A stretch of 64,000 nt of DNA, from the NCBI GenBank assembly GCA_016124645.1, contig WGNE01000016.1, positions 1-64,000 of the forward strand. The letters are read 5' to 3'. Under the pieces are notes generated by a model, which saw only the letters and a list, made by a program, of their open reading frames with translations, was not told the origin of the DNA and did no database searches. This document shows, one piece after another, positions 52,622-54,505 of the stretch. Position numbers and translations under genes: made by a program. The first letter of the stretch is position 1. Each line of letters opens with the position of its first letter. The DNA is from Alphaproteobacteria bacterium (GTDB lineage: Bacteria; Pseudomonadota; Alphaproteobacteria; Micavibrionales; UBA2020).

Positions 52622-53395
52622 ATGCGGGTCTTGCGGGCCATGATTTTGAATCTGCTGCAAAAGAACAAAAAGAAAAAAGCCAAAAAACCTTCCGCCGACA
52701 AGAAGCGCCCGCGCGCGACCATTCCGGCCGTCATCGGGGGCCTGCGCGTCAAGCCCAGCGCAAGGGCGCATTACCTCAACCTGCGGCTCGACGCGCGCAC
52801 GAGCGAGATCGTGCTGACATGGCCGCTGCGCCGCCGCGTCTCTCTCTCCAAGGCCGAGCGCTTCATCGCCGAGAACCGCGAATGGATCGCCCGCCAGCAG
52901 CGCGACCTGCCCAAGGCGCGCGTCTTCGCGCCCGGCAGCAAGCTGAGAGTGGCGGGCCGCGAATACGTCATCGAGCACGCGCCAGGCCGCGGCATCACCC
53001 GCTTCGAAGGCGGGCGGCTCATCGTCCACGGCGGGCGCGAGCACCTGCCGCGCCGCGTGCGCGATTTCCTGAAGCAGGAAGCGCTGCGCATCATGAAGGC
53101 GCTGGCCGACGAAAAGGCGGAGATGCTGGGCCTGCGCTCTTCCGAGGTGCGCATCCTCGACCCCAAGACGCGCTGGGGCTCCTGCGGGCCCGACGGCAAG
53201 ATCATGTTCTCATGGCGGCTCATCCTCGCCCCGCCGGAAGTCATGGACTACCTCGTCGCGCATGAGGTCGCCCACCGCATCCACATGAACCACAGCAACC
53301 GTTTTTGGAAGCTTTGCGGCCAGCTGACGGAAAACGTCGCCGACTGCCGCCGCTGGCTGCACGAGAACGGCAAGGAGCTGATGGTCTGGAACTAA
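52622..53395 (+). CDS. YgjP/DUF45-type (M48-like) metallopeptidase
   Basis: KTRWGSCGPDGKIMFSWRLILAPPEVMDYLVAHEVAHRIHMNHSNRFWKL. Confidence 0.93.
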   Translation: MRVLRAMILNLLQKNKKKKAKKPSADKKRPRATIPAVIGGLRVKPSARAHYLNLRLDARTSEIVLTWPLRRRVSLSKAERFIAENREWIARQQRDLPKARVFAPGSKLRVAGREYVIEHAPGRGITRFEGGRLIVHGGREHLPRRVRDFLKQEALRIMKALADEKAEMLGLRSSEVRILDPKTRWGSCGPDGKIMFSWRLILAPPEVMDYLVAHEVAHRIHMNHSNRFWKLCGQLTENVADCRRWLHENGKELMVWN

Positions 53396-53434
53396 GGGCG
53401 GTTTTACCCCGCCCCGGCGCGCGAAAAAAAGTCA

Positions 53435-53472
53435 CCCCCGACCAGACTTCCGGGAAGGGGGCTGGTCGGGGG
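53435..53472. terminator. Strong hairpin, terminator-like on minus strand
   Basis: CCCCCGACCAG...CTGGTCGGGGG 11-bp stem with inner CTTCC/GGAAG; T7 tract starts 4 nt beyond the stem on the minus strand. Confidence 0.5.
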
Positions 53473-53696
53473 CACCGCGCGGTATATATAAAACTTTATA
53501 AAAGACGTTATCGCTTGTTTTGCGGCCCGGGCAGGGCAGCCGCCATTCTTGGACCCGTTGAGACGGAAGAACCATTGTTCTTCTCCCGTCCGGTCGGTGT
53601 CGCGCGTGCGGCGCCGTTTGCCGGAAGGAGCCGGGGAGCGCCGGAAAAGAACGGTTCCGGCCCCCGCGCCAGCGCCTGCATCCCGATAAATTGTAA

Positions 53697-53740
53697 TGGG
53701 ATATATCCCATATCGTCAAGCAGCATTGGGATACATCACG
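53697..53740. promoter_or_regulatory. Candidate operator of XRE/S24 regulator
   Basis: Perfect palindrome TGGGATATATCCCA (53697-53710) and related half site TGGGATACATC starting at 53727 (30 bp apart). Confidence 0.6.
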
Positions 53741-53782
53741 ACTACTCAAGCCTGTGTTGCCTGAATAGTGTACGGGGCTGAA

Positions 53783-54505
53783 ATGTCCAAACTGAAGCAG
53801 AATCTGGAAAAGCTGATGCGACAAAAAGGCCTGTCGCAGAAAGGGCTTGCGGTCAAAGCCGGTCTCAACGAGACGGCTGTGCGCGATATTTTGCGCGGGC
53901 GTTCAAAAGACCCGCAGCTCAGCACCCTGCGCGCGCTGGCCAATGTTTTGCAGTGCAATGTGGAAGATTTCTACCGCGACCTTCCGCTGCCCGGCGCGGG
54001 CGAAAAACCCGGCGTGCGCGACAGCATCTGGCCGCCCGACATCTGCGCGGCGGCGGAAACGCTTTTGCCCTCCGCCGCCAGCGAGATGGTGGTCATCGAC
54101 GAGGTCGATATCGACAACGCGCACGGCATCGAAGCGCTGCGCGCCGGCCGCAAGCACGTGGTGCTGCGCCGCTGGTGCCTGCCGCCCGACTTCCTGCGCC
54201 AGCGCAGCACGGCGGATTTTTCCAAGCTGAAGATCGTCAGCGTCGAAGGCGACGCGATGACGCCCGAATTCCAGCCCGGCGACCGGGTGATGGTGGATAC
54301 CTCCGACGTTCTGCCGACGCCGCCCGGCGTCTTCATCGTCTGGGACGGCATGGGCCTCTCCCTGCGCCGCTGCGAGGTCAGGCCGGGCAGCAGCCCCTCG
54401 CGGCTGGTCTTAAGCGCGGGCAATCCCGACTACGAAAGCCACGAAGTCCCCTTCCGCGAAAGCGTCATCGGCGGCCGCGTCATCGCCAAGTGGCAGTGGC
54501 TGTGA
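53783..54505 (+). CDS. XRE-type HTH regulator with S24/LexA-like C-terminal domain
   Basis: MSKLKQNLEKLMRQKGLSQKGLAVKAGLNETAVRDILRGRSKDPQLSTLRALANVL; SVEGDAMTPEFQPGDRVMVDTSDVLPTPPGVFIVWDGMGLSLRRCEV; ORF could start at 53768. Confidence 0.9.
   Translation: MSKLKQNLEKLMRQKGLSQKGLAVKAGLNETAVRDILRGRSKDPQLSTLRALANVLQCNVEDFYRDLPLPGAGEKPGVRDSIWPPDICAAAETLLPSAASEMVVIDEVDIDNAHGIEALRAGRKHVVLRRWCLPPDFLRQRSTADFSKLKIVSVEGDAMTPEFQPGDRVMVDTSDVLPTPPGVFIVWDGMGLSLRRCEVRPGSSPSRLVLSAGNPDYESHEVPFRESVIGGRVIAKWQWL

Follow-up and report, generated by a model that had tools for sequence, protein, structure and literature searches.

An XRE-type regulator with an S24 fold lacking both catalytic residues, and its putative paired operator, in a Micavibrionales genome

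Locus and protein architecture

The window (i.e., the whole stretch of DNA that was analysed, 64,000 nucleotides) contains on its forward strand an open reading frame spanning 53768-54505, for which the ATG at 53783 was taken as the likely start in place of the GTG at 53768, with the stop at 54505. The following features were assigned to the gene and to the region upstream of it:

53783-54505, forward strand: XRE/S24-like transcriptional regulator, 240 aa (open reading frame list; Pfam HTH_26, HTH_3, and Peptidase_S24 above cut-off)
53783-53986, forward strand: helix-turn-helix domain with recognition helix LNETAVRDIL (Pfam; class-wide relatives with the identical helix)
54083-54502, forward strand: S24 (LexA/CI) fold domain, predicted to be non-catalytic (Pfam; AlphaFold2; Foldseek)
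54119-54127, forward strand: former self-cleavage site Ala113-His114-Gly115, (S/A)-A-G in dyad-intact relatives (alignments)
54254-54256, forward strand: Ala158 (GCG) at the catalytic Ser position, context VEGDAM (sequence, alignment)
54365-54367, forward strand: Arg195 (CGC) at the catalytic Lys position, context LSLRRCE (sequence, alignment)
53696-53711, no strand: putative operator O1, 16-bp perfect palindrome ATGGGATATATCCCAT (sequence; comparative enrichment)
53727-53740, no strand: putative operator O2, imperfect copy TGGGATACATCACG, 30 bp from O1
53690-53719, reverse strand: predicted leftward promoter TTGACG-18-TACAAT with O1 in its spacer (10/12 consensus matches)
53428-53472, reverse strand: terminator-like hairpin followed by a run of seven T, reading leftward (sequence, folding)

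The Pfam models HTH_26 and HTH_3 (residues 7-64) and Peptidase_S24 (residues 146-233) all scored above their cut-offs, the last with 25.7 versus 23.3 bits, and both Pfam and Foldseek placed the S24 fold C-terminal to the DNA-binding domain. The AlphaFold2 model, built from a 31-row alignment, had a pLDDT of 86.8 (about 90-97 for residues 1-60) and resembled lambda CI, phage 186 CI, and LexA in Foldseek searches (TMt 0.80 for the LexA C-domain); the HTH domains of DdrO and CapH were also among the structural matches. Based on the model and these matches, the S24 fold is retained. The gene has a strong coding signature (GC of 0.66, 0.45, and 0.84 at codon positions 1, 2, and 3), and its GC content is 0.55 in the HTH part versus 0.69 in the remainder, which is compatible with a domain exchange.

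Neighbouring genes were read as leuA, ygjP, rpsA, cmk, and aroA (from open reading frames; ygjP by Pfam), i.e., as core-genome genes, and the regulator is therefore not in a prophage setting. The assembly (2.85 Mb, 91% complete) encodes the regulator in a single copy, along with three further S24 proteins whose dyads are intact. As these include LexA (contig C32), SOS control exists separately in this genome. On contig C3, a 12-kb phage-like fragment (L101) encodes a capsid protein, a tape-measure protein, and DUF2460 tail proteins of the type known from gene transfer agents (GTAs).

Catalytic dyad and scissile site

An earlier reading of the sequence alone had described an XRE regulator whose S24-like domain appeared to be devoid of both catalytic residues, and alignment confirmed Ala158 and Arg195 at the two catalytic positions. 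These are 37 residues apart, which equals the Ser-Lys spacing in dyad-intact relatives, so that no dyad is hidden elsewhere in the protein. At the aligned scissile position, the Ala-Gly of relatives is replaced by His114-Gly115 (ELDVRASAG in relatives versus EVDIDNAHG here), RASAG being present in the phage-like relatives L175 and L176, and an AG at residues 121-122 lies 37 residues N-terminal of Ala158 and off the aligned site. Across the relatives, [A/C]-G in the linker was found in 41 of 47 dyad-intact and in 7 of 29 dyad-lost members (Fisher 5e-8, relatedness not being corrected for).

The protein thus has domain order, fold, and spacing of the two catalytic positions in common with LexA and lambda CI (MEROPS S24), but differs from them in having neither the Ser, nor the Lys, nor the Ala-Gly site; a Cys-Gly alternative to the latter is not present either. 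Its C-terminal domain aligns over approximately 94 residues with NCBIfam NF048000 (ECH_1013 family putative transcriptional regulator), of which it is not a member (73.5 bits versus a cut-off of 300). Judged from the residues, loss of self-cleavage, as proposed in the sequence-only reading, is well supported by the changes at Ser, Lys, and the Ala-Gly site and by their being common to members of the same order. With all three changed, RecA filaments should not trigger self-cleavage. The further claim that the protein must sense something else went beyond the evidence, since repression could equally well be constitutive and governed by the level of the repressor itself.

Relatives and history of the dyad loss

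A first scan of the genome contigs with the query protein alone as query gave no match. Relatives were then collected with a profile from 385 genomes of the class, from 142 of the order, and from named genomes, and a tree was calculated from 76 distinct S24 domains after removal of the two catalytic columns. In this tree, the query S24 domain was sister (99/88) to a family of about 26 proteins of the same order and of many genera (f3), in which Arg replaces Lys in all 26 rows and Ser is absent from 25, its position being occupied by Ala, Thr, Val, Leu, Met, or Phe. The exception, L138, has Ser/Arg. Loss of the catalytic residues, which the sequence-only reading had reported for this gene, is real and not unique to it, being shared with these relatives and, as reported, with RogA of Caulobacter crescentus (PMC9632790). 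A Micavibrio-type pair with intact dyad (L135/L136) formed the next branch after the query and f3, and outside the order Ser and Lys were present in nearly all members found in the class-wide search. Two independent losses outside the order were seen in Gluconobacter (L127, Ala/Arg) and Nitrospirillum (L128, Gly/Lys).

Parsimony on the S24 tree required three changes. Grouping of the query with the dyad-intact pair L135/L136 was not rejected in the AU test (p 0.116), hence the dyad loss in the query and in f3 is either shared or parallel. The profile search of 17 other genomes of the query's own family gave no match to the regulator.

The dyad-less f3 genes are mostly divergent to a Cro-like XRE gene of about 120 aa across two TTTCT-N5-AGAAA palindromes (L137, L140-L149, L151, L155, L157, L160, L162, and L093), and several of these pairs adjoin a gene that reads like cysQ. 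The f3 pair looks like a domesticated CI/Cro switch that was kept across many genera.

Putative operators

The palindrome TGGGATATATCCCA, which had been noted upstream of the gene at 53697-53710, is exact and forms part of the 16-bp perfect palindrome O1. Within the 2.85 Mb assembly it is unique, and allowing two mismatches adds only three further places; TGGGATANATC occurs at two other places, both within open reading frames. A second half site had been placed at 53727; its position and the 30-bp distance (start to start) were correct, yet it is more than a half site, since O2 agrees with the operator at 8 of 10 positions. O1 and O2 are located at -86 and -56 relative to the regulator gene, and the string TGGGATAYATC has three matches in the window, where 0.01 are expected.

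For a comparative assessment, the 200 bp upstream of genes from other genomes with an HTH like that of the query were scored for TGGGA-N4-TCCCA. The same-helix set consisted of 19 genes encoding xxTAVRD (the query and one near-duplicate being excluded), and 17 related genes without this helix served as control. A site with at least 8 of 10 positions was present upstream of 10 of the 19 same-helix genes (against an expectation of 1.66, and with such a count in 0 of 200 shuffles) and of none of the 17 controls, and a site with at least 9 of 10 positions upstream of 4 of the 19 (0.135 expected). One gene, L012, had been seen before the test was designed, and without it the counts were 9/18 and 3/18, respectively; because some of the genes are kin, all of these counts are indicative only. 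A good site is absent upstream of about half of the same-helix homologs. The comparison (10/19 versus 0/17) gives strong support to the earlier proposal that the palindrome is an operator, and as far as sequence comparison goes it is very probably that of the regulator.

In f3, whose HTH is a different one, most palindromes lie near -80 and -51, at a distance of 28-33 bp from each other. The same two-site geometry combined with a different helix suggests that what is conserved is the role of the S24 domain in pairing dimers.

No operator-like site was found in a clear promoter position elsewhere in the assembly, the inspected near matches being situated inside open reading frames or past the 3' end of a gene. 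Likewise, no GTTC-N7-GTTC SOS box was found between 50 and 58 kb of the window, and no consensus rightward promoter for the regulator gene.

Leftward promoter and transcript

O1 is located between the -35 and -10 elements of the predicted leftward promoter, as in relatives, and the main target may therefore be divergent transcription. Autoregulation, as inferred earlier from the layout, agrees with the sites being upstream of the regulator's own gene and recurring with the same helix, but is only part of the picture, as the leftward promoter holds O1. By chance, 0.4 promoter matches of 10/12 are expected in the region. TTGACA adjoins the operator upstream of L041, L042, L043, and L050, and a full leftward promoter match surrounds it in L042 and L043. 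The divergent gene is DUF6456-like in L042/L043 and a Cro-like XRE gene in L012, which has the helix and operator of the query.

The predicted leftward RNA would extend from about 53684 to the hairpin at 53472-53428, i.e., over about 255 nt. This stretch lacks a coding signature (GC of 0.67 at each codon position versus 0.66/0.45/0.84 in the regulator) and has a mildly low folding energy (z -1.94); Rfam returned no match. An open reading frame of 57 aa within it (53508-53681) was rejected as a gene, with GC of 0.67 at all codon positions and no Pfam match. The leftward unit may represent a small RNA, or else a remnant that is no longer functional.

Proposed function and alternatives

We consider it likely that the regulator is a CI-type repressor that was domesticated and lost its autoproteolysis, and it is probably a stable switch under a control other than the DNA-damage response. 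In such a switch, the helix LNETAVRDIL would bind TGGGA-N4-TCCCA, to which the co-occurrence of the two points, and two dimers would occupy O1 and O2, whose distance of 30 bp corresponds to about three helical turns. Fold and layout suggest that the S24 domain was retained for contacts within dimers or tetramers, which would make binding cooperative. Occupancy of O1 would block the leftward promoter, and O1 and O2 together would set the regulator's own expression. Relief would require a drop in concentration or the action of an antirepressor, a ligand, or another protease.

Repressors of this kind are known. RogA (CCNA_00080) is an alphaproteobacterial, chromosomally encoded XRE protein with an S24-like domain; it is reported to be without the key cleavage residues and to repress gafYZ directly (PMC9632790), with few target promoters. 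Phage 186 CI is inactivated by the antirepressor Tum and not by self-cleavage (as cited in PMC3121763), and the Gifsy repressors are likewise released by antirepressors rather than by cleavage (PMC3121763). Phage 186 CI (PDB 2fjr, 2fkd) also has a C-terminal domain of S24 fold, which it uses for oligomerisation, but it is a prophage gene with a known antirepressor, whereas the regulator described here has a core-genome setting and 12-14% sequence identity to it over the structural alignments. By analogy, the regulator would work like RogA, phage 186 CI, and the Gifsy repressors; lineage and operator appear to be new, and the kind of regulator is already known from phage 186 CI and RogA.

A closer relationship to RogA, in which the regulator would act at a remote promoter to repress a GafY/DUF6456-like activator of a GTA or a prophage, is unlikely. 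Apart from the architecture of RogA itself, it is favoured by the DUF6456 annotation of GafA homologs (PMC9638019), by the GTA-like tail fragment on contig C3, and by L042/L043 (named copies L123 and L122), which have an intact dyad together with the helix and operator of the query and are divergent to a DUF6456 gene, with the operator inside its predicted promoter. It is possible that these and the DUF6456 gene form a RogA-like GTA control pair. However, the query's genome, in an assembly that is 91% complete, has no DUF6456/GafY match above cut-off (best 13.5 bits, in a protein that reads as a sigma factor), and operators at clear promoter positions are lacking elsewhere in the assembly. Moreover, among nine named genomes searched, Asticcacaulis, the one Caulobacteraceae genome, gave only a dyad-intact match. 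Since no DUF6456 gene was found and RogA was compared by its published description, the regulator cannot be assigned to RogA. Control of a GTA was rejected for this genome, in which DUF2460 is present on the phage-like fragment but no DUF6456 gene was found.

The regulator could also be what remains of a former CI/Cro-like switch after loss of the Cro-like half, now simply autoregulated and without any other target, a somewhat better though still unlikely explanation. Most dyad-less relatives, and L012 as well, are divergent to an XRE gene across their operators, and here the two sites are present and the divergent coding gene is absent. The surviving promoter match and the leftward terminator, each of which could be due to chance, suggest instead that the leftward unit is still used. 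Decay of the gene, with the dyad loss reflecting relaxed constraint on a protein without a role, would fit the single copy and the lack of a match in the 17 genomes of the same family, but is very improbable given the intact reading frame with its strong codon-position signature, the conserved S24 core, the intact perfect operator, and the identical dyad loss with invariant Arg in about 26 relatives. Least probable of all is cleavage in trans, e.g., by the product of ygjP (52622-53395), a YgjP-like metallopeptidase by Pfam that is encoded directly upstream on the same strand. DdrO/IrrE and CapH/CapP are precedents for repressor cleavage in trans, and the DdrO and CapH matches noted above are in line with it. 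YgjP, however, is not an IrrE/ImmA protein, the two genes are about 390 bp apart, and their pairing was not seen to be conserved in relatives, leaving adjacency as the sole support.

Returning to the domesticated repressor, a more far-reaching and speculative version, which we regard as improbable as a whole, is that the order turned a phage-type, SOS-cleavable CI repressor stepwise into a heritable non-proteolytic switch, keeping the 30-bp two-operator layout while exchanging helix and operator sequence, and that the target of the switch here is a structured non-coding RNA (about 255 nt) in place of a Cro-like or GafY-like protein. Regarding the order of steps in such a conversion, the Ser/Arg member L138 suggests that Lys was changed to Arg first, followed by free drift at Ser.

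Implications

The biology of this single gene in the window is modest. In its wider context, it would represent a case of an SOS-responsive autoprotease repressor becoming a stable regulator, with the same residue pair lost across one order and fold and operator layout kept. In addition, a concrete candidate operator, TGGGA-N4-TCCCA, is assigned to the recurrent helix NETAVRD of many alphaproteobacterial regulators. As these include regulators adjoining DUF6456 (GafA-annotated) genes, the assignment could help to find GTA control.
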